A stretch of 64,000 bases of DNA from Denitromonas iodatirespirans (GTDB taxonomy: Bacteria; Pseudomonadota; Gammaproteobacteria; Burkholderiales; Rhodocyclaceae): assembly GCF_018524365.1 (NCBI RefSeq), contig NZ_JAEKFT010000001.1:248001-312000 (forward strand). Direction: 5' to 3'. The position numbers were made by a program, and so were the translations under genes. The notes under the pieces were generated by a model. It was not told where the DNA came from. It saw only the letters and a program-made list of their open reading frames with translations, and ran no database searches. Numbering within the stretch: position 1 is the stretch's first letter; every line of letters starts with the position of its first letter. Below are positions 22,366 through 40,836 of the stretch, one piece after another.

Positions 22366-22379
22366 TTGATCCGGATCAA
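22366..22379 (+). promoter_or_regulatory. Perfect FNR/Anr box of the ompW promoter
   Basis: TTGAT-CCGG-ATCAA is an exact match to the FNR/Anr/Fnr-type consensus. A -10-like TACTAT lies at 22401-22406. A start site near 22414 would put the FNR site centre at about -41.5, the class II activation geometry. The remaining 22068-22365, upstream of the divergent hoxM, holds no gene and no other site I can name. Confidence 0.85.
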
Positions 22380-26707: not shown

Positions 26708-26804
26708 GTGATTGGTAATTGGTGATGGGGTGATTGGTGGGCCGTACCGACCGGCACGGCCTTGCCTGGCTCTTGCCAATGACCAATCACGAATCACCAA
26801 TCAA
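26708..26804. repeat. Inverted-repeat spacer between hupL and hupC
   Basis: The spacer contains repeated GATTGGT units on the left (26709-26738) and ACCAATCA units on the right (26782-26804, reaching into the hupL stop codon). Together they can form a long imperfect hairpin in the hupSLC transcript. The central loop is about 40 bases. It has no T-run, so it looks more like an mRNA-stability or processing element than a terminator. It could set the hupSL to hupC ratio. Confidence 0.55.
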
Positions 26805-28591
26805 CGCACTTTGACAAGAGCCATTTCCTGCCCGTCCGGACTCATCACATGCGTCGAGCAGGCCAGGCAGGGGTCGAAGGAATGCAGGGTGCGCAGGATC
26901 TCCAGCGGCTGGTCGGCCACCGCCACCGGCGTGTTCATCAGCGCGGCCTCGAAGGCGCCGATCTGCCCTTGGCCGTCGCGCGGACTGCCGTTCCAGGTGG
27001 TGGGCACCACGGCCTGGTAGTTGTCGATCTTGCCGTCGCGGATCTTGATCCAGTGGCCCAGCGCGCCGCGCGGCGCCTCGGTGAAGCCCACGCCCTTGGC
27101 CTCTTTCGGCCAACGCGACGGATCCCACTTGTCGATGTTGGCGGTGGCGGTGTCGCCGGCCTTGATGTTGGCGATGAGCTTGTCGAAGAAGTAGCGCATC
27201 TTGTGCGCGGCCCACGAGGCCTCCAGCCCGCGCGCGGCGGTGCGCCCGAGCGTGGAGAACAGCGCTTCGAGCGGCAGGCCGAGGTCGGTCAGCAGCTTGT
27301 CGGTCGGCTCCTTGAACTCCGGATTGCCCTGCACATAGCCGACGATGTAGCGCGACAGCGGGCCGACCTCCATGGCGTGGCCGCGCCAGCGCGGCGACTT
27401 GATCCAGGAGTACTTGCCCTCCTCGTCCAGCGACTTGATGTTCGTCTTGGTGCCCTGCGTCTTGGGGCCGAGGGTGAAGTTGGGCTCGGTGACGCCGTCC
27501 CAGGGGTGCAGCCCCTTGGTCTCGTCGGCGTACTTGTACCAGGAGTGATTGACGAACTCCTGGATCTCCTCCGGGTCGCGCAGGTCGACCTCGTGGATTT
27601 TGGTGAGATCGCCATTGATGATCGCGCCGCGCGGCAGCAGCAGGTTGCTGCCCGAATAGTCGTTGGCACGATCGGGGATGTCGCCGTAAGACAGCACCGA
27701 CAGGCTGGAGAGCCCGCCGCCGAAGGTCCAGTCCTTGTAGAAGCTGGCGATGGCCTGCAGGTCGGGCAGGTACACCTGGTCCACGAACTCGATGGTGCGG
27801 TCGATGATGCTCTGCACCAGGTTCAGCCGCTCCATGTTGATGGCGCCGACCGCGCCGGTGCCGTCCATGTTGATGGCACAGGGCATGCCGCCGACCAGCC
27901 AGTTGGGGTGCGGGTTCTTGCCGCCGAAGATGGTGTGGATCTTGACGATTTCCTTCTGGAAATCGAGCGCTTCCAGGTAGTGCGTGACCGCCATCAAGTT
28001 GGCTTCGGGCGGCAGCTTGTAGGCCGGGTTGCCCCAGTAGCCGTTCATGAACGGGCCGAGCTGACCCGATTCGACAAACTTCTTCAGCCGGTTCTGGATA
28101 TCGCGGAAATAGCCCGGCGAGCTGTTCGGCCAGTTCGAGATGCTCTGCGCCAGTGCCGAGGTGGCCTTGGGGTCGGCCGACAGCGCGCTCACCACGTCCA
28201 CCCAGTCGAGCGCATGCAGGTGGTAGAAGTGCACCAGGTGGTCGTGCACCTGCAGCGTGAGCTGCATGATGTTGCGGATCGAATTGGCGTTGTCGGGGAT
28301 CTCGATGCCCAGCGCATCCTCCACCGCGCGGCAGGAGGTGAGCGCATGGGTGCCGGTGCACACCCCGCAGATGCGCTCGGTAAAGGCCCAGGCATCGCGC
28401 GGGTCGCGCCCCTTGAGGATCACCTCCAGCCCGCGCCACATGGTGCCGGTGGACACCGCGTTGCGGATCACGTTGTTGTCGTCGAGGTTCACCTCGACCC
28501 GCATGTGCCCTTCGATGCGCGTTACCGGATCGACCACCACCCGCTTGCCGGTGTTGTCGAGCTTGAAGCCCTGCGTTTCGTACACACCCAT
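26801..28591 (-). CDS. hupL: Membrane-bound uptake [NiFe]-hydrogenase large subunit (group 1d type)
   Basis: A 596-residue catalytic subunit. The nickel-iron site is intact: RICGVC at the N-terminal pair and DPCLACSTH at the C-terminal pair. The tail after that histidine, 15 residues ending ALVKVR, is the part removed by the protease HoxM. Other family marks are [31 protein letters not shown] and [13 protein letters not shown]. It follows hupS by two bases and precedes hupC. It exits with HupS through Tat to the periplasm. The companion small subunit places it in the oxygen-tolerant class. Confidence 0.97.
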
Positions 28592-28593
28592 GA

Positions 28594-29682
28594 TCAGTCC
28601 TCTCCCTTCGGCGTATCGATGCCCGTTTTCTGGCGGGCGCGGGCCAGCGCGGTGACCGCGGCATGGGCGGCAATCGAGGCGCCCACCACCCCGGCGGCGG
28701 TGCCGCCCACTTTGTCGGCATTGGCTTCGACGCCGAACTGCTGGATGTCGGTGACCCGGTCGTAGAACGAGCCCTTGTCCCAGAAGCCGTCTTCCGAGCA
28801 GCCGATGCAGCCATGGCCCGACTGGATGGGGAAGGACACGCCCTCGTTCCAGCGCACCGTCGAACAGGCGTTGTAGGTGGTCGGGCCCTTGCAGCCCATT
28901 TTGTAGAGGCAGTAGCCCATGCGCGCCTGGTCGTCGTCCCATTGCTCGACGAACTGCCCGGCGTCGAAGTGCGGGCGGCGATAGCATTTGTCGTGGATCC
29001 GCTGGCCGTAGAACATCTTCGGCCGCCCCTGGCGATCCAGCTCGGGCAGGCGGTCGAAGGTCAGCATGTAGGTCACCACCGCCGTCATCACCTCGGCGAT
29101 CGGCGGGCAACCCGGCACCTTGATGATCGGCTTGTCGAAGATCACCTTGTGCACCGGCGTGGCGCGCGTCGGGTTCGGCTTGGCCGCCTGCACGCAGCCC
29201 CACGAGGCACACGAGCCCCAGGAGATGATCGCCTTGCAGTCGGCGGCGGTCTCCTTGAGTTTTTCGATGAAGGGCCGGCCGCTCTGGATGCAGAACATGC
29301 CGTCCTCGTTGAGCGGCGGGTTGCCCTCCACCGCCAGGATGTAGTTGCCCTTGTACTTGGCCCGCACCTCGTCGAGGATCGCCTCGGCCTGATGCCCGGC
29401 CGCCGCCATCAGCGTGTCGTCGTAGTCGAGCGAGAGCATCGACAGCACCACATCCTTGGTCAGCGGATGCGCCGAGCGGATGAAGGATTCCGAACAACAG
29501 GTGCACTCCAGCCCGTGCAGCCAGATCACCGGCGTGCGCGGCTTGGTCTCCAGCGCATGCGCAATCTTTGGCGCGAAGGCCGAACCCAGGCCCAGCGAGG
29601 TGGCGGTCAGCGAACAGAACTTGAGGAAACTGCGGCGCGTGATGCCCTGCCGGCGCAGTACCTCGTAGAAGGTGTCGGTCAT
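28594..29682 (-). CDS. hupS: Oxygen-tolerant-type uptake hydrogenase small subunit
   Basis: A 362-residue iron-sulfur subunit. It has a Tat signal (RRSFLKF at 16-22), with cleavage likely after AHA at residue 43. The proximal cluster region reads LECTCCSES, with an extra Cys at 62, and SCASWGCVQ, with an extra Cys at 163. With that cleavage these are mature residues 19 and 120, the positions of the two additional cysteines that form the [4Fe-3S] cluster of oxygen-tolerant hydrogenases. Other ligands are in GCPPIAEVM and the C-terminal [24 protein letters not shown] and GHGCIGCSE motifs. A hydrophobic C-terminal segment serves as membrane anchor. AGGGAGAC precedes the start. First gene of hupSLC. 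Confidence 0.97.
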
Positions 29683-29753
29683 CGGGGTGTCTCCCTGGTG
29701 GGTCTTGTTATCCCCCGCCGGCGGGCGCTCGGCGGAACGTCGGATGACACCAT

Positions 29754-29769
29754 CACAAGAAGCATGCCA
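29754..29769 (-). promoter_or_regulatory. Candidate sigma-54 promoter of hupSLC
   Basis: Read on the minus strand the sequence is TGGCATGCTTCTTGTG. It has the GG and TTG positions of the -24/-12 consensus (TGGCACG-N4-TTGC), with T in place of C at the last key base. The start codon is about 60 bases further on. A nearly identical element precedes the second hydrogenase (43027-43042). HoxA, a sigma-54 activator encoded in the window, is the likely partner. Confidence 0.65.
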
Positions 29770-29790
29770 CCGTGCCGAAAGTCGAAAAAC

Positions 29791-29804
29791 TTGATGTATA
29801 TCAA
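29791..29804. promoter_or_regulatory. Perfect FNR/Anr box upstream of hupS
   Basis: TTGAT-GTAT-ATCAA matches the FNR/Anr consensus exactly. It lies 22 bases upstream of the proposed hupS sigma-54 element, in the spacer shared with the divergent pqqA. It could control either side. The rest of the 29683-30040 spacer holds no gene; the pqqA side shows only its GAGGAG ribosome-binding site. Confidence 0.75.
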
Positions 29805-30040
29805 GCACCTCCCGACGCACGCACACCCCGCCGAAAAGACCGGACCGGAAAGCAGGTTTCCGGTTTTCGACGGCTACCGCCCAGGCCACTGGCGGATTCA
29901 CCCCCGAGTCCGCCGCCTTGCCCGTCAATCATGATTTTCAGTAGGCGAATGCGGCAAAAGGCGGATGCCCGGCGCGCAGGCGGCTCTCACTATGAGCCCC
30001 AGGCACGGCATGGGGCCGCGCCGCCATTGAGGAGACACAC

Positions 30041-30115
30041 ATGACCTGGGAAACCCCCGCCTATTGCGAAATCCGTCTGGGATTCGAAGTCACGGCTTAC
30101 GTCTACGTCCGCTAA
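30041..30115 (+). CDS. pqqA: PqqA-type ribosomally made precursor peptide
   Basis: A 24-residue peptide starting MTWETPAYCEIRLGFEVTAY. It contains the PqqA core E-x3-Y (Glu16, Tyr20) within FEVTAY, where PqqE forms the Glu-Tyr cross-link that starts PQQ synthesis. The N-terminal W-x-x-P and RLGFEVT pattern matches known PqqA leaders. A strong GAGGAG site lies six bases before the ATG. The C-terminal end VYVR is short, as in other PqqA. Unusual points are a Cys at position 9 and a second Tyr at 22, two residues after the core tyrosine. It is followed 61 bases later by pqqD. Confidence 0.9.
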   Translation: MTWETPAYCEIRLGFEVTAYVYVR

Positions 30116-30176
30116 GCCGGTCCGGGGCGGTGGCGGCCTGCCGCCTTCGCCCCCTCTCCGCCCGAGGCCCGCCATC

Positions 30177-30482
30177 ATGACACTTGCATCGACCGCCACC
30201 GACCGCCGCCCGCAGCTGTCGCCCCACTTCATGTTCCGCTGGGAAGCCAGCCAGGACGCCTACATCCTGCTCTACCCGGAAGGGCTGATCAAACTCAACC
30301 CCTCCGCCGGCGAGATCCTCAAGCGCTGCGACGGCCAACACACCGTGGCCGAGCTGATCGCCGAGCTTCAGGACGCCTTCCCCGGCCCCGCCGACGACAT
30401 CGACCAGGGCGTGCGCGCCTTTCTCGACGTGGCCACCGACAAGGGCTGGCTGCACGCCGGAGAACTTGTGAAGAAATCGTAG
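30177..30482 (+). CDS. pqqD: PqqD peptide chaperone
   Basis: A 101-residue RiPP recognition element that binds the PqqA leader and presents it to PqqE. Family marks are RPQLSPHFMFRWEASQDAYI, LLYPEGLIKLNPSAGEIL and VAELIAELQDAFPG. The gene is free-standing, not fused to pqqC or pqqE. The last six or so codons and the stop codon lie inside a 145-base inverted-repeat element (30461-30605), so the native C-terminus may have been altered by its insertion. Gap to pqqE is 151 bases, nearly all of it that element. Confidence 0.93.
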   Translation: MTLASTATDRRPQLSPHFMFRWEASQDAYILLYPEGLIKLNPSAGEILKRCDGQHTVAELIAELQDAFPGPADDIDQGVRAFLDVATDKGWLHAGELVKKS

Positions 30483-30605
30483 CGAGCAGGGCCGAGTGCA
30501 AGGCGCGAGTTCGCGAACGACGAGACATATCGATTGGATAGGCGAGGAGTGAGCGAGTGAGCAACGCAGCAATCGGCACGCGCAGTAGATTTATTCACAA
30601 GTTCT
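30461..30605. mobile_element. MITE-like 145-bp element with 18-bp terminal inverted repeats
   Basis: The left end AGAACTTGTGAAGAAATC (30461-30478) is matched by the right end GATTTATTCACAAGTTCT (30588-30605) as an inverted repeat with one mismatch in 18. The interior has no reading frame of note and contains further GAGCGAG-type short repeats. It covers the 3' end of pqqD and most of the pqqD-pqqE spacer. Size and structure fit a miniature inverted-repeat element; no transposase or clear target duplication was seen. Confidence 0.65.
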
Positions 30606-30633
30606 GAGACCACCTGCCACAAGGAGCACAACC

Positions 30634-31779
30634 ATGCCAAAAGACAGCAACGGCCTCACGCTCGACGGCCAGGGCAAGCCCCTGTGGCTGTCCCTCGAAC
30701 TCACCTACCGCTGCCCGCTCAAGTGCAGCTGGTGCAACAACCCGCTGGATTTCGACGACTACGCCGCCCGCGAGCTGACCACCGACGAATGGAAGCGCGT
30801 GCTGCGCGAATCGCGCGAGCTGGGCGCCCTGCAGCTGGGCTTTACCGGCGGCGAGCCGCTGCAGCGGCCGGACCTCGAAGAACTGGTGGCCTACGCCAAC
30901 GCGTTGGGCTTCTACACCAACCTGATCACCTCCGGCATCGGCCTCACCGAAGAGCGCCTGGTGGCGCTCAAGGCCGCCGGGCTCAAGCAGATCCAGCTGT
31001 CGCTGCAGGCCACCGAGGCCGCGGTCACCGATGCGCTGGTCGGCGCCACCGCCCACGAGCGCAAGCTCGACGCCGCCCGCCGCATCAAGGCGCACGGCTT
31101 TCCGATGGTGCTCAACATGCCGGTCTTCCGCCAGAACATCGGCATGACCGACGCGATGATCGCCTGGGCCGCCGAGCTGGGCATCGAGTACATCGAGTTC
31201 GCCAACATCCAGTACTACAACTGGGCGCTGATGAACCGCGACGAACTCATGCCCACCCTCGAACAGGTGCGCGAAGCCGAACAGGTGGTGCAGCGCTGGC
31301 GCAACAAACTGGGCAAGAAAATGACGATCTACTTCGTCATCCCCGACTACTACGAAGGCCGCCCCAAGGCCTGCATGAACGGCTGGGGCGCCATCCACCT
31401 GACCATCGCCCCCGACGGCGTGGCCATGCCCTGCCAGGAAGCGCGCGTGATCCCCGGCCTCGAATTCGAATCGGTGCGCGACAAGCCGCTGGCCTGGCTG
31501 TGGCACGAGTCGCCGCTGTTCCGCAAATATCGCGGGCTCGACTGGCTGCCCGAGCCCTGTGTGTCGTGCGACGAAAAGGAAAAGGACTTCGGCGGCTGCC
31601 GCTGCCAGGCCTTCCTGCTCACCGGCGACGCCGGCAACACCGACCCGGCCTGTGGCCGCTCGCCGCATCACGCCCGGGTGCGCGAGGCCGTCGACACCGC
31701 CGCCCGCCCGCTGCGCTTTCGCAAGCCGCTGTTCAAGCGCGCCGCCGGCACCGTCACCACCGCCTTTCTGGAGGACTGA
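30634..31779 (+). CDS. pqqE: PqqE radical SAM PqqA cross-linking enzyme
   Basis: A 381-residue radical SAM/SPASM enzyme that joins the glutamate and tyrosine side chains of PqqA. The SAM cluster motif is C27-x3-C31-x2-C34 (RCPLKCSWC). FTGGEPLQRPDLEEL follows. The SPASM auxiliary-cluster cysteines are present at 247 (ACMNGWG), 267 (MPCQEA), 309, 312, 322, 324 and 340. An AAGGAG site lies before the ATG. Length is normal. The sequence is a good PqqE by motif, so the first step of PQQ chemistry is likely retained even though pqqB and pqqC are not in the window. Confidence 0.95.
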   Translation: MPKDSNGLTLDGQGKPLWLSLELTYRCPLKCSWCNNPLDFDDYAARELTTDEWKRVLRESRELGALQLGFTGGEPLQRPDLEELVAYANALGFYTNLITSGIGLTEERLVALKAAGLKQIQLSLQATEAAVTDALVGATAHERKLDAARRIKAHGFPMVLNMPVFRQNIGMTDAMIAWAAELGIEYIEFANIQYYNWALMNRDELMPTLEQVREAEQVVQRWRNKLGKKMTIYFVIPDYYEGRPKACMNGWGAIHLTIAPDGVAMPCQEARVIPGLEFESVRDKPLAWLWHESPLFRKYRGLDWLPEPCVSCDEKEKDFGGCRCQAFLLTGDAGNTDPACGRSPHHARVREAVDTAARPLRFRKPLFKRAAGTVTTAFLED

Positions 31780-31780
31780 G

Positions 31781-31876
31781 ATGCGCCACCCCTACGACAC
31801 CGCGCGCGGCACCATCGCCCTCGGCATCGCGCTCACCGTGGTGCTGGCGGCACTGGTGCGCCTGCTGGCCGGCTGA
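31781..31876 (+). CDS. 31-residue single-span membrane peptide in the pqq operon
   Basis: A tiny gene starting one base after the pqqE stop, with GGAGG at the end of pqqE as its ribosome-binding site. The peptide is MRHPYDTARGTIALGIALTV followed by VLAALVRLLAG. It has a short charged head and one membrane helix (about residues 11-29). It ends eight bases before the PuuD-like membrane gene. Its tight spacing and good ribosome-binding site support it as a real gene. It may be a small subunit of the following membrane protein. No family recognised. Confidence 0.7.
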   Translation: MRHPYDTARGTIALGIALTVVLAALVRLLAG

Positions 31877-31884
31877 GGCGCGCC

Positions 31885-32382
31885 ATGGACATGCTGCTCG
31901 ACCTCACCCTGCGCTGGGCGCACTTCATCGCCGGCATCATCTGGGTCGGCCACAACTACTCCAGCGTGGTGCAGCGCCCCAGCTGGCAGCCGCTGCGCGC
32001 CGACGAGCTGAGCGACGACCGCAGCCCGCGCTTCCAGGCGCTGCTCAACCGCGAGCACGGCTTCTTCCGCTGGGCCTCGGTGGTTACCTGGTGTGCCGGC
32101 CTGCTGATGCTGTGGCGCCAGGGCTGGCTCCCCGGCGCGCTCGCCCTGCAAGGCGGCCTGGCGCCGATCGGCATGGGCATGTACATCGGCACGCTGATGA
32201 TGCTCAACGTCTGGCTGGTGCTGTGGCCGCACCAGAAAAAGGTGCTCGGCCTGGTGCCCGCCGGCATCGACGAGCGCCTGCGCTGCTCGCGCATCACGCA
32301 CCTGTCGTCGCGCACCAACACCATGCTGTCGATCCCGCTGCTGTTCTTCATGGCCACCGGCAGCCACGGCGGTCTGCTGTGA
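31885..32382 (+). CDS. PuuD-like (urate hydroxylase N-terminal domain-like) membrane protein
   Basis: A 165-residue integral membrane protein with about four hydrophobic segments. It resembles the membrane domain of PuuD-type urate oxidases: LTLRWAHFIAGIIWVGHNYS at the start, LNREHGFFRWASVVTWCAGL, and MGMYIGTLMMLNVWLVLWPH with conserved histidines that may bind heme. PuuD proteins carry a C-terminal cytochrome c domain; that domain is absent here, and no purine-degradation genes are nearby. Its stop codon overlaps the start of the aminotransferase gene. In this operon it may serve as an electron outlet to the respiratory chain, which is inference only. Confidence 0.75.
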   Translation: MDMLLDLTLRWAHFIAGIIWVGHNYSSVVQRPSWQPLRADELSDDRSPRFQALLNREHGFFRWASVVTWCAGLLMLWRQGWLPGALALQGGLAPIGMGMYIGTLMMLNVWLVLWPHQKKVLGLVPAGIDERLRCSRITHLSSRTNTMLSIPLLFFMATGSHGGLL

Positions 32383-33461
32383 CGGCTTACAGCTTTGCCG
32401 CCGGCCCCGCCCGCCTGCCCGACGCCGTGCTCGAACGCGCCCGCGACGCGTTGTTCGTCCGCGGCGTAGACGGCGCCGCCACGCTGGAGCGCCCCTTCAC
32501 CGGCGACGCCTTCCGCGCCACGCTGGCCCATGCCCGCGAACGCCTCGCCGCGCTGCTCGGCCTGCCGCCCGGCTACCGCATGCTGTTCCTCGCCGGCGGC
32601 GCCATGCACCAGTTCTCGCTGCTGCCCATGAACCTGCTCGGCACCGCCCGCTGCGCCGCCTACGCCGACTCCGGCTACTGGTCGCAGCGCGCCATCGACG
32701 AAGCCCGGCGCTACACCAAGGTGGTCATTGCCGCGCGCTACACCGGCGCCACCCCGCTGGCCGCGCCGACCGCCGGCCGCTGGCATCTGCCTCCGGGCTG
32801 CGCCTACTGCCACATCACCCCCAACGAAACTGTCGACGGCCTGGCCTACCCCGAGCTGCCGCACACCGGCGCCGTGCCGCTGGTGGCCGACGCCACCTCC
32901 TGCTTCCTCGCCACGCCGCTCGACATCACCCGCTTCGGCCTGATCTACGCCAGCGCCCAGAAAAACCTCGGTGTGGCCGGCCTCACCGTGCTCGTGGTGC
33001 GCGACGAGCTGCTCGGCCGCGTCGCCCCACACGTCCCCACCGCATTCAGCTACCGCATCCAGGCCCAGCAGGACAGCACCTACAACACCCCGCCCACCAC
33101 CGCCATCCACGTGGCCGCCATGGTCTTCGACTGGATCGCCGACAACGGCGGCCTCACCACCCTGGCCGCCGCCAACCGGCGCAAGGCCGAGCGGATCTAC
33201 CGTGTCATCGACGGCAGCGGCGGCGTCTACACCGCCCCGGTGGTGCCCGCCCACCGCTCGGTCACCAATATCCGCTTCCACCTCGCCGACACCGCCCTCA
33301 CCGAACGCTTCATCGCCGAGGCCGAGGCCCACGGCCTGCATCACCTGCGCGGCCACCCCCGCATCGGCGGCCTGCGCGCCAGCCTCTACAACGCCATGCC
33401 TGAAGCCGGCGCCAATGCGCTGGCGGAGTTCATGAGCGATTTTGCCCGGCGGTACGGATGA
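32379..33461 (+). CDS. SerC-like (phosphoserine aminotransferase family) PLP enzyme
   Basis: A 360-residue class V aminotransferase closely resembling SerC. Visible motifs: YSFAAGPARLPDAVL at the start, LFLAGGAMHQFSLLPMNLL, PNETVDGLAY, ADATSCFLATPLDITRFG, and the PLP lysine Lys195 in ASAQKNLGVAG. QDSTYNTPPTTAIHVAAM is the usual substrate-side segment. The GTG start overlaps the upstream stop (GTGA). A housekeeping serC is normally found with serA or pheA; this copy is in the pqq operon instead. It may act on serine metabolism or, more interestingly, on an amino group of the PqqA-derived product. Codon use is like the neighbouring genes. Confidence 0.85.
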   Translation: MTAYSFAAGPARLPDAVLERARDALFVRGVDGAATLERPFTGDAFRATLAHARERLAALLGLPPGYRMLFLAGGAMHQFSLLPMNLLGTARCAAYADSGYWSQRAIDEARRYTKVVIAARYTGATPLAAPTAGRWHLPPGCAYCHITPNETVDGLAYPELPHTGAVPLVADATSCFLATPLDITRFGLIYASAQKNLGVAGLTVLVVRDELLGRVAPHVPTAFSYRIQAQQDSTYNTPPTTAIHVAAMVFDWIADNGGLTTLAAANRRKAERIYRVIDGSGGVYTAPVVPAHRSVTNIRFHLADTALTERFIAEAEAHGLHHLRGHPRIGGLRASLYNAMPEAGANALAEFMSDFARRYG

Positions 33462-33579
33462 GCCCGCCCCGGTCGTTCCGACATGCGCTCGCACCCGCGT
33501 TGCGAGGAAGCGCCGCCGGTCGCGCCCACACACCCACGCCAGCGGCAAGCCACACGCACAGCGACGGCAGAGGCATCCA

Positions 33580-34320
33580 ATGACCCGCCTCCGCCTGCCC
33601 TGGCACGACCGCCCCGGCCTCGCCGGCGGCATCGACACCGACGGCAGCCGAGCCGGCGAATTGCTACAACTGGGCTTCGGCAGCGTCGAGTTCGGCACCG
33701 TCGCCGCCCACCCGCAAGCCCCCAACCCGCTCGCCCCGCTGGTCGCCCGCCTCTCCGCCCTGCCATCACGCAACCCCGGCAGCAGCGCCATCGGTATCGG
33801 CATCGGCCTGTCCCCCGGCGCGCCCGCCACCGCCGTGCCGGGGCAATGGCTCGACGGCCTGCATGGCGCCTGGCAGGCGGCCGACTACCTCAGCTTCAAC
33901 CTCAGCGCCCGCGCCCACCGCCCGCTGCTGGCGCCCGAACACCACACCATGCTGGCCATCACCCTGCGCGTCCTGGCCCGCGAGCGCGACCGCCTGCCCC
34001 GACGCGTCGCCCTGGCCCTCAAACTGCCGCTCGGCGAGCACCACACCCCCCTACCCGCCATCGCCGACGCCGCCGCCCACGCCGGCATCGACAGCCTCAC
34101 CCTCGTCCTCGCCGACCCGCCCGCCAACCGCACCGACCAACTCACCCGCCTCGCCGCCCTCGCCCGCCACCTCCCCACCGGCCCCGCCCTCGTCGCCGTC
34201 GGCGGCATCCGCAACGCCCACGACGCCCGCGCAGCCCTCGACGCCGGCGCCTCGGCCGTGCAGGTTCACCGCGCTTTCACCCAGCACGGCCCGGCCTGCC
34301 TGAACAACCTCAGCCCGTAG
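33580..34320 (+). CDS. Shortened dihydroorotate dehydrogenase-like TIM-barrel protein
   Basis: A 246-residue protein that resembles PyrD-type FMN oxidoreductases. The N-terminal LAGGIDTDGSRAGELLQLGF and SVEFGTVAAHPQAPNPLAPL match the PyrD start, and VAVGGIRNAHDARAALDAGA followed by SAVQVHRAFTQHGPACLNNL matches the FMN phosphate end. It is about 90 residues shorter than class 2 PyrD. The segment usually reading NxSSPNT is NLSARAHRP here, so the orotate-binding asparagine appears lost. A different substrate is likely. It follows the SerC-like gene by 118 bases, which hold no other gene, and closes the apparent operon. Confidence 0.72.
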   Translation: MTRLRLPWHDRPGLAGGIDTDGSRAGELLQLGFGSVEFGTVAAHPQAPNPLAPLVARLSALPSRNPGSSAIGIGIGLSPGAPATAVPGQWLDGLHGAWQAADYLSFNLSARAHRPLLAPEHHTMLAITLRVLARERDRLPRRVALALKLPLGEHHTPLPAIADAAAHAGIDSLTLVLADPPANRTDQLTRLAALARHLPTGPALVAVGGIRNAHDARAALDAGASAVQVHRAFTQHGPACLNNLSP

Positions 34321-37142: not shown

Positions 37143-37424
37143 TCAGGGGCGGGCGTGGCCGGTCAGGTCGGTGAAGTAGCGCTGGGGGTCGTAGTCGCCG
37201 TCGAGCGAGGCGGCGAGCGCTTCGAGGGCTTCTTCGATGAGGGCGAGCTGTTCGGCTTCGACCACTTCCTTGGCGAAGCCGAGTTGCACCAGCACCCAGG
37301 TGTCGACGGGCTGCGGGCCGACGAAGAGCATGTTGACCCGCTCGCGGCGCTCACCGCGGGCGACGATGGCGACGTGACCGCCGGCTTCGAGTTCGACCAC
37401 CTGCATGGGGATGGACAGGCACAT
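37143..37424 (-). CDS. hybG: HypC/HybG-family chaperone of the second hydrogenase
   Basis: A 93-residue HypC-family protein starting MCLSIPMQVVELEAGGHVAI, with the essential Cys2. Further marks are VNMLFVGPQPVDTWVLVQLG and a C-terminal extension ending DPQRYFTDLTG, longer than HypC. It shares its first base with the last base of the protease gene stop (TGATG), so translation is coupled. As the third HypC-like protein in the window it probably serves the Hyb large subunit specifically. Confidence 0.88.
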   Translation of the reverse strand: MCLSIPMQVVELEAGGHVAIVARGERRERVNMLFVGPQPVDTWVLVQLGFAKEVVEAEQLALIEEALEALAASLDGDYDPQRYFTDLTGHARP

Positions 37425-37945
37425 CAGGCGGCCTCGGCGCGGCGTGGTGTGCAGGGCACGCCGGCACTGTGCAGCGCGCTGACGATGGCGGCCTCGGCCT
37501 CGGGCAGCGCGGCGGCGACGGCCTGGGTGAGTGTCATGCCGGTGTCGACGCTGACCGGCTGCACGCCGACCACCACCACCCGGCGCGGCGCGCGGTCGGT
37601 GAAGTGCAGCGTGGCGAGCACGTCGGAGAGGCCGACCTGGTGCGGCGAGAGCTTGGTGCGGAAGAAGGCGGGCACGTCGTCGTCCTGGAGCACCACCACG
37701 CTGGCCGGCGGACGGCCGGTGCGCACGCAGTCGGCAATCACCAGCAGATCGAGATTTTCGAGGTCTTCGAGCATCTCCATGGCGCAGGTGCCGCCGTCGA
37801 GCACGGTGACCCACTCGGGCAGGCGGTAGCCGGCCTCGATGCGCTCAACGAGGCGCACGCCCACGCCTTCGTCCGAGAGGAGGATGTTACCCACGCCGAG
37901 CAGGGCGACTCGGCGCGGGGCATCCGGGCGGGAGGCGGTGTGCAT
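37424..37945 (-). CDS. hybD: Hydrogenase maturation protease for the second hydrogenase
   Basis: A 173-residue endopeptidase of the HybD/HoxM family. Motifs: ALLGVGNILLSDEGVGVRLV with the first metal-binding acid, VLDGGTCAMEMLEDL, VIADCVRTGRPPASVVVL and LSPHQVGLSDVLATLHF with the conserved histidine. It would cut the HybC tail after DPCLACAVH, releasing ILDTEHTEVVTVKAA. It is one base downstream of hybC and overlaps hybG by one base. It is shorter than HoxM (205 residues), lacking that protein's C-terminal extension. Confidence 0.93.
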   Translation of the reverse strand: MHTASRPDAPRRVALLGVGNILLSDEGVGVRLVERIEAGYRLPEWVTVLDGGTCAMEMLEDLENLDLLVIADCVRTGRPPASVVVLQDDDVPAFFRTKLSPHQVGLSDVLATLHFTDRAPRRVVVVGVQPVSVDTGMTLTQAVAAALPEAEAAIVSALHSAGVPCTPRRAEAA

Positions 37946-37946
37946 G

Positions 37947-39659
37947 TCAGGCGGCCTTCACGGTGACCACTTCGGTGTGCTCGGTGTCGAGGATGTGCAC
38001 CGCGCAGGCCAGACAGGGGTCGAAGGAATGCACCGTGCGCAGCACTTCGAGCGGCTGCTCGGGGTCGGCCACCGGGTTGTCGAGCAGGCAGGCTTCGTAC
38101 GCGCCCGGCGCGTCGTGCTCGTTGCGCGGAGCGGCGTTCCAGGTGGTGGGCACCACGCACTGGTAGTTGTCGATCTTGCCGTCCTTGATCACCACCCAGT
38201 GCGAGAGCACGCCGCGCGGCGCTTCGTGAAAGCCCACGCCGCGCTGCTCGCCCTTGGGGAAGGTGGGCGGGTTGAAGGTGGTGAGGTCGCCCTTGCCCAT
38301 GTTGTCGACCAGGCGGTCCCACTGCGCGGCGAGCTCGTCCACCTGCACCGCGCAGGCGACGGCGCGTGCGGCATGGCGGCCGATGGTGGAGTGCATGGCG
38401 TCGAGCCCGACCTTGATGCCGGCAATGGACGAGACGCGCTCGAGCGTGGCGGTGGCGTAGCGCGCGGTCGGTTCGTGGCCGGCGGCGAGGCCGGCGAGCA
38501 CGCGCGCCAGCGGGCCGACCTGCATGGGCTTGCCGTAGAAGGTGGGCGACTTGAGCCAGGAGTATTTGCCCTCGTCCTGGAAGTCGGTGTAGTTCGGGGT
38601 GGTTTCGCCCTCGTAGGGGTGCAGGCTCTTGTCGTTGCCGCCCTTGTAGTCGTACCACGAGTGCTTGACCGCCTCGCTCACGCCGTCGAGGAAGTACTTG
38701 TCGTGGAAGGTGTTGATCGCCTTGAAGGTCGACAGGTCCCCGCCCGCGATATGACCGCCCGGGATGGCGAATGTCTCGCCTTTGCCGTCGAGCGGGATGT
38801 CGGGCACGCACAGGTAGTCGGTGATGCCGCGGCCGACCTGGGTCCACTCGGGGTAGAAGGCGCCGATGGCGGCTACATCCACGAGGTAGACGTTCTTCAC
38901 GAAGTCGTCGAGCTTGCCGATCCACTCCTTCACCGCGAGCAGGCGCTCCATGGTGAGCACCGACTGCGCATCGAGCGCCAGCGGGTTGGCCACACCGCCC
39001 ACCGCCACGTTCTGGATGTGCGGGGACTTCGAACCGAGCACCGACACGATCTTGCTGGCGTAGCGCTGCACTTCGAGCGCCTGCAGATAGTGCGACACGG
39101 CGAGCAGGTTCACCTCGGGCGTGAGCTTCATCGCCGGGTGGCCCCAGTAGCCGTTGGTGAAGATGCCCAGCTGGCCGGTGCCGACGAAACCTGTGAGCCG
39201 CTCCTTGACCTTGGCGAACTCATGCTTCGAGTTACCCGACCAGTTCGACAGGCTCTCGGCGAGGGCGCTGGTCTTGGCCGGGTCGGCCTTGAGGGCGCTG
39301 GTGACGTCCACCCAGTCGAGCGCGGACAGGTGGTAGAAATGCACGATGTGATCGTGGATCGCGTGCGCCAGGATGATCAGGTTGCGGATGCTGTTGGCGT
39401 TGACCGGGATCTCCAGGTTCAGCGCGTTTTCCACCGCGCGCACCGAGGCGATGGCATGCACCGTGGTGCACACCCCGCAGATGCGCTGGGTGATGGCCCA
39501 GGCATCGCGCGGGTCGCGCCCGGTGAGGATGTTCTCCACCCCGCGCCACATCTGGCCCGAGGCCCAGGCCTTGGAGACGCGGCCGTCATTCACTTCCACG
39601 TCGACACGCAGATGGCCTTCGATGCGGGTGACGGGGTCGATGGTGATGCGTTGGCTCAT
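37947..39659 (-). CDS. hybC: Second [NiFe]-hydrogenase large subunit (Hyb type, group 1c-like)
   Basis: A 570-residue catalytic subunit. The nickel-iron ligands are intact: RICGVC near residue 58 and DPCLACAVH near the C-terminus, followed by a 15-residue cleavable tail. [37 protein letters not shown] and GYWGHPAMKLTPE are family marks. It lies 13 bases after hybB with GAGGAG upstream, in the order O-A-B-C typical of Hyb enzymes, which are reversible quinone-linked hydrogenases of the periplasmic face. It is clearly distinct from HupL in sequence, so it is a paralogue from a different subgroup, not a recent duplicate. Confidence 0.96.
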   Translation of the reverse strand: MSQRITIDPVTRIEGHLRVDVEVNDGRVSKAWASGQMWRGVENILTGRDPRDAWAITQRICGVCTTVHAIASVRAVENALNLEIPVNANSIRNLIILAHAIHDHIVHFYHLSALDWVDVTSALKADPAKTSALAESLSNWSGNSKHEFAKVKERLTGFVGTGQLGIFTNGYWGHPAMKLTPEVNLLAVSHYLQALEVQRYASKIVSVLGSKSPHIQNVAVGGVANPLALDAQSVLTMERLLAVKEWIGKLDDFVKNVYLVDVAAIGAFYPEWTQVGRGITDYLCVPDIPLDGKGETFAIPGGHIAGGDLSTFKAINTFHDKYFLDGVSEAVKHSWYDYKGGNDKSLHPYEGETTPNYTDFQDEGKYSWLKSPTFYGKPMQVGPLARVLAGLAAGHEPTARYATATLERVSSIAGIKVGLDAMHSTIGRHAARAVACAVQVDELAAQWDRLVDNMGKGDLTTFNPPTFPKGEQRGVGFHEAPRGVLSHWVVIKDGKIDNYQCVVPTTWNAAPRNEHDAPGAYEACLLDNPVADPEQPLEVLRTVHSFDPCLACAVHILDTEHTEVVTVKAA

Positions 39660-39672
39660 GACTGGGTTCTCC

Positions 39673-40836
39673 TCAATGGGCACCGTGCACCGCGTCTTCG
39701 CGCGGCAGCACCGGGAAGCGGCGGGTAATGACGATGTAGGCAAGAATCTCGATGGCGAACATGCCGAAGGTGACCAGCATCTCGGGCACGGACGGGAAGT
39801 AACTCCAGCCCTCGCCGGTGTCGTAGCCGACCAGGAAGGCGTTGATGCGCAGCAGCACGCCGCCGAGCATCAGCAGCGCGCCGGCCACGAAGAGCCGCGC
39901 CGGGTTGCGCCGCGCGGCCTGGGCGCGCAGCAGCACGAAGGGCGCGACGAAGCAGGCTGTCTCGAGCCAGAACATGGCCGCCTGCACGCTGCCCTCGAAG
40001 GCATAGCCGAGCGCGCCGCGGACGATGAGATCGCCGAAGCGCACCGCCAGGAACACGCCGAGCATGCCGAGCATGATCTTGGAGAGCGGCGTGAGCAGGT
40101 GCATCTCGATCGTGCGCCGGTAGCCGGCCGCCGCCAGGCAGGACTCGAACAGCACCACGGCGTAGCCCATGGTGATGGCCGAGATCAGGAAGATCAGCGG
40201 CAGCACGATGCTCTGCCACAGCGGGTGGATCTGCGTGCCGAAAACCACCAGCAAGGAGCCGAGCGAGCTCTGGTGCATCATCGGCAGTACGGTGCCCAGG
40301 GCGATGAAGAAGAACATCGCCTTGTTCACCTTGCGCCTGGCGTCCTTCATGCCCCACTTCTCGAAGAAAGTCGGCGAGAACTCGATCCACATCACCACGA
40401 TGTAGAGCGAGATGCAGGCGGCCACCTCGAACATCACCGAGTTGGGCGAGGCATAGCCGGGCGCGAGGATGTGCCAGAAGTTCCACCAGCGGCCGAGGTC
40501 GAACAGCACGCCGACGCCGGCCAGCGTGTAGCCGAAGAGGCTGGCCAGCAGCGCCGGGCGCACCAGCGGGTGGTACTCGCCCTTGTTGAAGATGTACACC
40601 AGCATGGCCACCGAGAAGCCGCCGCAGGCGAAGGCCGAGCCGATCACCACGTCGGCCACCACCCAGATGCCCCAGGGGTAGCCGTCGTTGAGATTCGTCA
40701 CTGTCCCCAGGCCATAGACGAAGCGCACGGCGAGGATCGCCAGCGCGGCCAGAATCAGCACGCCGAGCACGAAGGTGACCGGCGACAACAGCCGCCCGCC
40801 GACCGGTGCCGGCGCAGCGTGTGCGTGCTTAGTCAT
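39673..40836 (-). CDS. hybB: HybB, NrfD-family membrane subunit
   Basis: A 387-residue integral membrane protein with about ten hydrophobic segments, of the NrfD/HybB family that exchanges electrons with quinone and may couple this to proton movement. Visible family segments are NLNDGYPWGIWVVADVVIGS, FDLGRWWNFWHILAPGYASP and MHQSSLGSLLVVFGTQIHPL. The start at 40836 has a strong AGGAGG site, with a few hydrophilic residues before the first helix. It overlaps the end of hybA by eight bases. Confidence 0.94.
   Translation of the reverse strand: MTKHAHAAPAPVGGRLLSPVTFVLGVLILAALAILAVRFVYGLGTVTNLNDGYPWGIWVVADVVIGSAFACGGFSVAMLVYIFNKGEYHPLVRPALLASLFGYTLAGVGVLFDLGRWWNFWHILAPGYASPNSVMFEVAACISLYIVVMWIEFSPTFFEKWGMKDARRKVNKAMFFFIALGTVLPMMHQSSLGSLLVVFGTQIHPLWQSIVLPLIFLISAITMGYAVVLFESCLAAAGYRRTIEMHLLTPLSKIMLGMLGVFLAVRFGDLIVRGALGYAFEGSVQAAMFWLETACFVAPFVLLRAQAARRNPARLFVAGALLMLGGVLLRINAFLVGYDTGEGWSYFPSVPEMLVTFGMFAIEILAYIVITRRFPVLPREDAVHGAH

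Follow-up and report, generated by a model that had tools for sequence, protein, structure and literature searches.

The operon described here lies in a 64,000-nucleotide (nt) stretch of the Denitromonas iodatirespirans genome (the window) and joins pqqA, pqqD and pqqE, genes of pyrroloquinoline quinone (PQQ) biosynthesis, to a four-gene tail. It is not an incomplete PQQ operon but a paralogous pqqADE set, the second in this genome, and it belongs to a real, conserved variant of PQQ biosynthesis, whose existence is in print and whose chemistry is proposed here. We lean towards the reading that the operon is a second PQQ branch used at low or no oxygen, in which the tail would replace the O2-consuming PqqB and PqqC steps. 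The low-oxygen switch is well supported, whereas the chemistry of the tail is what we infer.

The window carries a paralogous pqqADE set

Seven intact open reading frames (ORFs) lie on one strand between positions 30041 and 34320, in the order pqqA, pqqD, pqqE, a gene for a 31-residue peptide and genes for PuuD-like, SerC-like and dihydroorotate dehydrogenase (DHOD)-like proteins (Table 1). The intergenic distances along the operon are 61, 151, 1, 8, −4 and 118 nt. The window PqqA contains Glu16 and Tyr20, four residues apart, the pair by which a PqqA precursor is recognized; it scores 44.2 bits on Pfam PqqA (PF08042, cut-off 21.1) and 41.6 bits on TIGR02107 (cut-off 20). The window PqqE scores 487.9 bits on TIGR02109, above the equivalog cut-off of 381.35. 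A first-pass annotation of this DNA had reported a good PqqA, a PqqD and a complete PqqE, and the cross-linking set is indeed complete and passes the curated cut-offs; its description of four tail genes on the same strand, with overlaps or small gaps through the aminotransferase (1, 8 and −4 nt), also holds.

No pqqB or pqqC is located inside the 64-kb window. However, one canonical pqqA-B-C-D-E operon sits on contig C69 of the same genome (G000), and whole-assembly searches identified a single pqqB and a single pqqC, both on C69. The first-pass annotation was correct that the two genes are not in the window; they are not missing from the genome. Because a canonical pqqABCDE is present elsewhere, we assign the window genes to a second set; that this genome makes PQQ without pqqB and pqqC was rejected, as both genes are on C69.

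The two sets are also separated by their sequences. In the maximum-likelihood tree of 102 PqqE sequences, one branch (support 100/99) splits 81 type II sequences from 21 type I sequences; the window PqqE falls inside type II, outside the canonical (type I) clade. The CxxxCxxC and SPASM cysteines (C27, C31, C34, C247, C267, C309, C312, C322, C324 and C340) are present in 81/81 type II PqqE. Among 33 distinct precursor strings from type II loci, 32 are PqqA-like and end with GFEVTAY[VA][YF][VT]R, the remaining one being a misread; type I precursors instead read GFE[IV]T[ML]Y in 20/20. Like canonical pqqABCDE, the window operon has PqqA, PqqD and PqqE above curated cut-offs and the Glu16/Tyr20 motif, and it resides in genomes with quinoproteins. 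Different from the canonical operon, it lacks pqqB and pqqC, has its own PqqA and PqqE clade, is preceded by one FNR/DNR-type box and carries the four-gene tail.

The tail is conserved next to type II pqqE

The loci compared were collected by a contig scan with four PuuD-like sequences, from which the best 80 of 209 relatives were taken; by their labels, these 80 come from beta-, gamma- and alphaproteobacteria. The pqqE gene adjoins the PuuD-like gene in 80/80 loci, and all 80 PqqE belong to the type II clade. The order pqqE-PuuD-SerC-DHOD on one strand is kept in 74/80 loci, which rules out a chance neighbourhood. Full DHOD was not found on the stretch in L060, L099 and L106, and in L082 it was misread by our script. 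The first-pass annotation had named two outcomes that would speak against it, pqqB and pqqC elsewhere in the genome and a tail not conserved in relatives; the former is the case, the latter is not.

By a rough script rule, one small ORF comparable to that of the 31-residue peptide precedes the PuuD-like gene in 50/80 loci. As judged by eye, the PuuD-like proteins of L047 and L048 carry a similar helix as an in-frame fusion, and the peptide is therefore read as a putative detached N-terminal helix of the PuuD-like protein.

Of 300 genomes sampled evenly across the order, 59 have pqqC, and the only 4 with a PuuD match of type II strength are among these; pqqE lies beside the type II-strength PuuD in the three relatives among the 4. 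In the phylum sample, matches of type II strength, by PuuD score alone, were found in 2/398 genomes, the genome studied here and G371. The order-wide PuuD search gave mostly other PuuD-like proteins, and no pqq gene is near the PuuD-like gene in the ten such loci that were read (L039-L048). As judged by eye, the protein of these ten loci is a 4-helix paralogue, often encoded beside argD/argF/argG, quinoprotein or other housekeeping genes, and in some of the loci a small helix peptide like that of the window, or a fused helix, is present as well. Among the 80 loci, those labelled Dechloromonas agitata is5 (L090) and Acidovorax sp. 210-6 (L091) share the same type II coordinates and identical PqqE; mislabelled or mixed assembly, or recent transfer, are possible causes.

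Type II PqqE and PQQ synthesis

PqqE and pqqC were counted in 52 carrier genomes: those of 50 loci from the set of 80 and, in addition, G065 and G039. PqqE is above the cut-off in 52/52. At E 1e-90, type II is the sole PqqE in 22/52 carriers, the other 30 having two or three PqqE, and 20/22 sole-copy genomes hold both pqqB and pqqC. In many loci (for example L053, L071, L074, L083, L084, L088 and L090), pqqB and pqqC are in or adjoin the type II cluster. Because 22 carriers have no PqqE other than type II, and 20 of these have pqqB and pqqC, it is very likely, judging from gene content, that the second PqqADE set feeds PQQ synthesis. The same count bears on the maturation route without pqqB and pqqC suggested in the first-pass annotation: since 20 of the 22 type II-only genomes keep both genes, the tail normally accompanies them, and the suggestion does not stand in that form. 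For the aminated or transaminated product that it envisaged, we found nothing beyond the presence of the SerC-like gene.

Quinoproteins are the likely clients. All 53 carriers have a match to the quinoprotein alcohol dehydrogenase family TIGR03075, 52 of them above the cut-off. One quinoprotein gene is located ≤25 kb from type II pqqE in at least 15/53 carriers, a lower bound as only part of the quinoprotein gene places were entered; the one in G332 is below the cut-off.

Two genomes, G313 and G331, are exceptions, in which neither pqqB nor pqqC passed the search thresholds. The metagenome-assembled genome (MAG) G331, of 12 contigs and 3.42 Mb, has NirS and the intact operon, with a quinoprotein gene at a distance of ∼9 kb. 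G331 is the best natural candidate for a tail that may be used alone. In G313, the cluster (L067) also has no nearby pqqA or pqqD, and a missing contig may explain the lack of pqqB and pqqC.

An FNR/DNR-type box precedes the operon

FNR, ANR or DNR bind boxes of the kind found upstream of the window pqqA (Table 1). Within 450 nt upstream of pqqA-led type II operons, the strict motif TTGATN4ATCAA is perfect in 7/36 and has ≤1 mismatch in 16/36; in 200 Markov shuffles, the strict box with ≤1 mismatch appeared in just 0-3 of the 36 regions. With the degenerate motif TTGAYN4RTCAA, which was chosen after the strict scan had been seen, perfect boxes are found upstream of 22/36 operons, at −172 to −250. 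These 16.0 kb of upstream DNA contain 22 sites, whereas the other 619.5 kb of the loci contain 12. Upstream of type I operons, perfect degenerate boxes occur in 0/20 (read for 20/21 operons, L135 being left out). These motif counts suggest that the type II operon is probably under low-oxygen control, and very probably so where it stands alone beside a canonical set.

The pqqA leader also contains one ATCATGAT palindrome. It was noticed post hoc: the 16.0 kb upstream of type II operons hold 13 sites, the other 619.5 kb of the loci 7. It also occurs upstream of pqqA in L049-L052, L092, L106, L108, L110, L111, L113 and L114. In Thauera-like loci it lies ∼36 nt downstream of the FNR/DNR-type box, like a −10 element; in Denitromonas it is farther away. 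The window as a whole holds four sites with ≤1 mismatch to TTGATN4ATCAA, the one at 29791 among them; the three further perfect boxes are at 22366, 43186 and 43272.

Carriers of the type II operon are mostly denitrifiers or nitrate reducers by gene content

We compared 40 type II carriers with 40 pqqC-positive genomes of the same order that have no type II cluster. Near relatives (G302, G318, G327, G333 and G339) and gamma- and alphaproteobacterial genomes (G342-G349) were left out of the carriers, and 15/55 controls were left out for low completeness or as repeats of the same genus. NirS-type cytochrome d1 is present in 33/40 carriers versus 7/40 controls; the PF02239 profile used also scores NirF and NirN, and the matches in G323 and G310 are partly fragments. 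NirS or NirK is found in 38/40 carriers versus 9/40 controls (Fisher p 1.4e-11, uncorrected for phylogeny), NarG in 29/40 versus 13/40 (p 7e-4), and any of NirS, NirK and NarG in 40/40 versus 20/40.

The association extends to gene position, as read by eye. Type II pqqE is located ≤25 kb from narG or nir genes in 7/40 carriers (G039, G065, G312, G330, G332, G335 and G336), compared to 0/24 type I pqqE copies in the same genomes. In G039, it lies between narG and the nir genes, and in G330 between nirK and narG.

Conserved residues and folds of the tail proteins

The SerC-like protein is homologous to SerC over its whole length, and its best PDB matches are 4xk1 and 7t7j. The gene starts with GTG at 32379 and overlaps the PuuD-like gene by 4 nt; the protein scores under the TIGR01364 cut-off. 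Across 77 sequences, the pyridoxal phosphate (PLP) lysine (K194, numbered without the initiator), Trp100, Thr150, Asp170 and Gln193 are conserved in 77/77 and Arg332 in 76/77. Different from SerC, the His-Arg pair of the phosphate site, as aligned to the PDB enzymes, is replaced by Phe (76/77) and Thr/Ser (72/77); in E. coli SerC we take this pair to be H41-R42. The residue following GH in the GHR motif is Arg in just 11/77. Judged by these residues, the SerC-like protein should still perform PLP chemistry on an amino acid, though probably not a phosphorylated one.

The DHOD-like protein has the barrel fold of a class-2 PyrD. Its AlphaFold2 model (pLDDT 95.9) best matches E. coli PyrD (1f76; E 4.7e-15, TM-score 0.81 by query length), and the flavin mononucleotide (FMN)-type residues K148, G208, G209, D19 and E37 are present in 76/76 sequences. 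Compared to 1f76, the protein is ∼90 residues shorter (246 versus 336) and the catalytic serine motif is lost; the catalytic serine of class-2 DHOD presumably lies in an NxSSPNT motif. At the serine position, Ser is found in 7/76 and Ala in 44/76 sequences, the window protein having Ala. The changes in the SerC-like and DHOD-like proteins would fit new substrates.

The PuuD-like protein is 165 residues in size and shares the DUF989 core with the cytochrome c urate oxidase PuuD. Its AlphaFold2 model (pLDDT 90.4) contains four long helices, compared to eight in PuuD; no CxxCH cytochrome c domain is present, and a Foldseek search with the model gave no PDB match at E ≤0.001. H13, H23, H58, H161, N24, Y25, E57, R131, R136 and R143 are conserved in 81/81 sequences. 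The type II HNY stretch corresponds to LLY or LLW in the housekeeping paralogues (L039-L048), which suggests that His23 is particular to type II. That the protein binds heme is a guess based on its histidines. Full PuuD is proposed to oxidize urate on the cytosolic side and to hand the electrons over to its cytochrome c domain; unlike soluble urate oxidase, it would form no H2O2 (PMC4562309). The same paper reports 4-helix DUF989 proteins that are shorter, correspond to helices I, II, V and VI and occur in a different gene context.

A putative oxygen-free finishing route

Put together, these features suggest the following scheme. When oxygen falls, an FNR-family regulator would turn the operon on. 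PqqD2 and PqqE2 would then join Glu16 to Tyr20 in PqqA2, and the cross-linked diamino acid would be released by a protease of the host. The PuuD-like protein, with its helper helix, would oxidize the ring, the added oxygen coming, as a guess, from water; by analogy to full PuuD, its electrons would go to the respiratory chain. The DHOD-like flavoprotein would desaturate the new nitrogen heterocycle; class-2 DHODs desaturate a nitrogen heterocycle carboxylate. The SerC-like PLP enzyme would work on an α-amino group of the intermediate. The product would be PQQ or a near-equivalent, loading quinoprotein dehydrogenases during denitrification. In the canonical pathway, PqqB and PqqC convert the cross-linked Glu-Tyr toward PQQ, PqqC using O2 (PMC12423496); by analogy, PuuD-type and DHOD-type reactions would be the kinds of step that these two enzymes perform. 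We consider it somewhat favoured that the tail is an oxygen-free finishing route for PQQ. The stricter form of this idea is held only tentatively, with slightly more doubt than belief: PqqB and PqqC would be replaced outright by a membrane protein of heme type together with a flavoprotein and a PLP enzyme, some bacteria, like G331, would rely on the tail alone, and others would have the two finishing routes side by side, with one or two PqqADE sets.

A number of observations weigh against the finishing route and its low-oxygen control. pqqC is kept in 50/52 carriers, and the tail does not stand in for pqqB and pqqC in most of them; pqqB is found in 51/53 at E 1e-30, with one fragment below the cut-off and 50/53 above it. 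The two genes are lacking in two MAGs only, and G331 may be incomplete. No SerC was found in the alphaproteobacterial loci L117 and L121, and no DHOD in L117; moreover, the aminotransferase is without a clear known reaction, and the SerC-like step, absent or located elsewhere in these two loci, is the least understood. A perfect box is lacking in 14/36 pqqA-led operons. In type II operons without adjacent pqqA, the box occurs in 0/42 (upstream of pqqE or pqqD), and because there is no FNR/DNR-type box, these operons may run aerobically too. Upstream of pqqB, scanned in 20 of the 80 loci, a box with ≤1 mismatch occurs in 1/20. A divergent hydrogenase-like gene has its inferred start ∼109 nt from the window box, which may serve that gene, or both that gene and pqqA. 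In the case-control comparison, whose carriers were chosen by PuuD similarity and whose groups were unmatched for phylogeny, NirK alone is alike in carriers (7/40) and controls (2/40; p 0.15), 9/40 controls have NirS or NirK without type II, and 2/40 carriers have neither.

Retention of pqqB and pqqC in most carriers would be expected if the tail acted after or beside them, for instance by converting PQQ or one precursor to a different quinone, such as a deaminated or otherwise altered analogue, for dedicated denitrification enzymes. That the SerC-like and DHOD-like proteins keep their cofactor residues while their substrate sites are altered is in line with this idea. However, the likely clients near the cluster are ordinary TIGR03075 quinoprotein alcohol dehydrogenases, and no other candidate client was seen among the recurrent neighbour families, which were read by eye with no family-library search; we consider a different quinone unlikely.

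Somewhat less likely still, the operon would be a low-oxygen pqqADE copy that boosts the supply of cross-linked precursor, with PqqB and PqqC finishing the synthesis on trace oxygen and the tail being accessory (disposing of electrons, protecting intermediates or scavenging). Nearly all carriers keep pqqB and pqqC, as this would require, and type II operons without adjacent pqqA have the tail but no FNR/DNR-type box. Against it, the tail order fixed in 74/80 loci and the invariant residues look like catalysis, and G331 keeps the operon and a quinoprotein gene without pqqB and pqqC.

A peptide natural product made from the PqqA-like precursor and unrelated to PQQ would suit the very strong conservation of the precursor C-terminus, unlike that of type I, but is highly improbable in view of the 22/52 genomes in which type II is the sole PqqE (20 with pqqB and pqqC), the quinoprotein matches in all carriers and the pqqB and pqqC genes beside type II in many loci.

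Features of the operon and neighbouring genes

Table 1. Elements of the type II operon and its upstream region in the window
Feature	Position	Strand	Remarks
FNR/ANR-type box, perfect, TTGATGTATATCAA	29791..29804	.	starts 250 nt upstream of the pqqA start
ATCATGAT palindrome in the pqqA leader	29928..29935	.	candidate −10 region or second regulator site
pqqA2	30041..30115	+	precursor peptide MTWETPAYCEIRLGFEVTAYVYVR; type II ending GFEVTAYVYVR
pqqD2, peptide chaperone	30177..30482	+	TIGR03859, 100.7 bits (cut-off 46)
pqqE2, radical SAM/SPASM Glu-Tyr cross-linking enzyme, type II clade	30634..31779	+	TIGR02109
31-residue single-helix membrane peptide	31781..31876	+	matches no family
PuuD-like (DUF989/Urate_ox_N core) four-helix membrane protein	31885..32382	+	Urate_ox_N, 48.5 bits (cut-off 26.9)
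SerC-like PLP aminotransferase paralogue, altered phosphate site	32379..33461	+	NF003764, 395.3 bits (cut-off 253)
Short class-2 DHOD-like FMN-type barrel without the catalytic serine motif	33580..34320	+	DHO_dh, 41.1 bits (cut-off 27)

As read by eye, two NiFe-hydrogenase-like gene sets flank the pqq cluster on the − strand, at 26787-29928 and 37143-39743. That the tail belongs to the hydrogenase genes was rejected, as no hydrogenase is found among the neighbour families, named by eye, that recur in ≥4/82 stretches compared. Near the cluster, one LuxR-type response regulator-like gene (named by eye) is present in 26/82 stretches, and one 329-residue protein of unknown function in 12/82. The Rfam search of the window gave no matches.

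Relation to published work and significance

The first-pass annotation had regarded the operon as an undescribed system. In fact, the cluster and a speculative function for it are already given in PMC12423496 (Mol Microbiol 2025), where it is reported from Hyphomicrobium, Halomonas sulfidovorans, Stutzerimonas, Methylophaga nitratireducenticrescens and Azoarcus DN11. The pqqAED-puuD-serC-pyrD cluster of Hyphomicrobium denitrificans is the same gene set, the five named organisms or genera are called denitrifiers, and the same oxygen-independent PQQ synthesis is offered as speculation. The paper also states that transcription of Hden_0551-0553 of the cluster is lowered in two regulator mutants, and it cites Klebsiella and P. 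aeruginosa, whose pqq genes are all canonical, as bacteria that do not produce PQQ under anaerobic conditions. The term 'FNR' does not appear in its main text. Beyond what that text gives on the cluster, we add the census, the sole-copy genomes with pqqB and pqqC, the FNR/DNR-type boxes, the case-control comparison, the residue changes and the MAG without pqqB and pqqC; what is new over the printed speculation is the regulatory, sole-copy and residue evidence. Among open-licence PMC papers, our literature search found no test of tail function, and PMC12423496 is the only paper known to us to describe the cluster.

PqqC consumes O2, yet quinoprotein dehydrogenases are expected to work in the absence of air in denitrifying methylotrophs and alcohol oxidizers. 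Since the operon is compact and present in cultivated denitrifiers, the question is directly testable. If the tail does finish PQQ without O2, it would explain anoxic PQQ, provide three enzymes with new chemistry and offer a route to anaerobic PQQ production.

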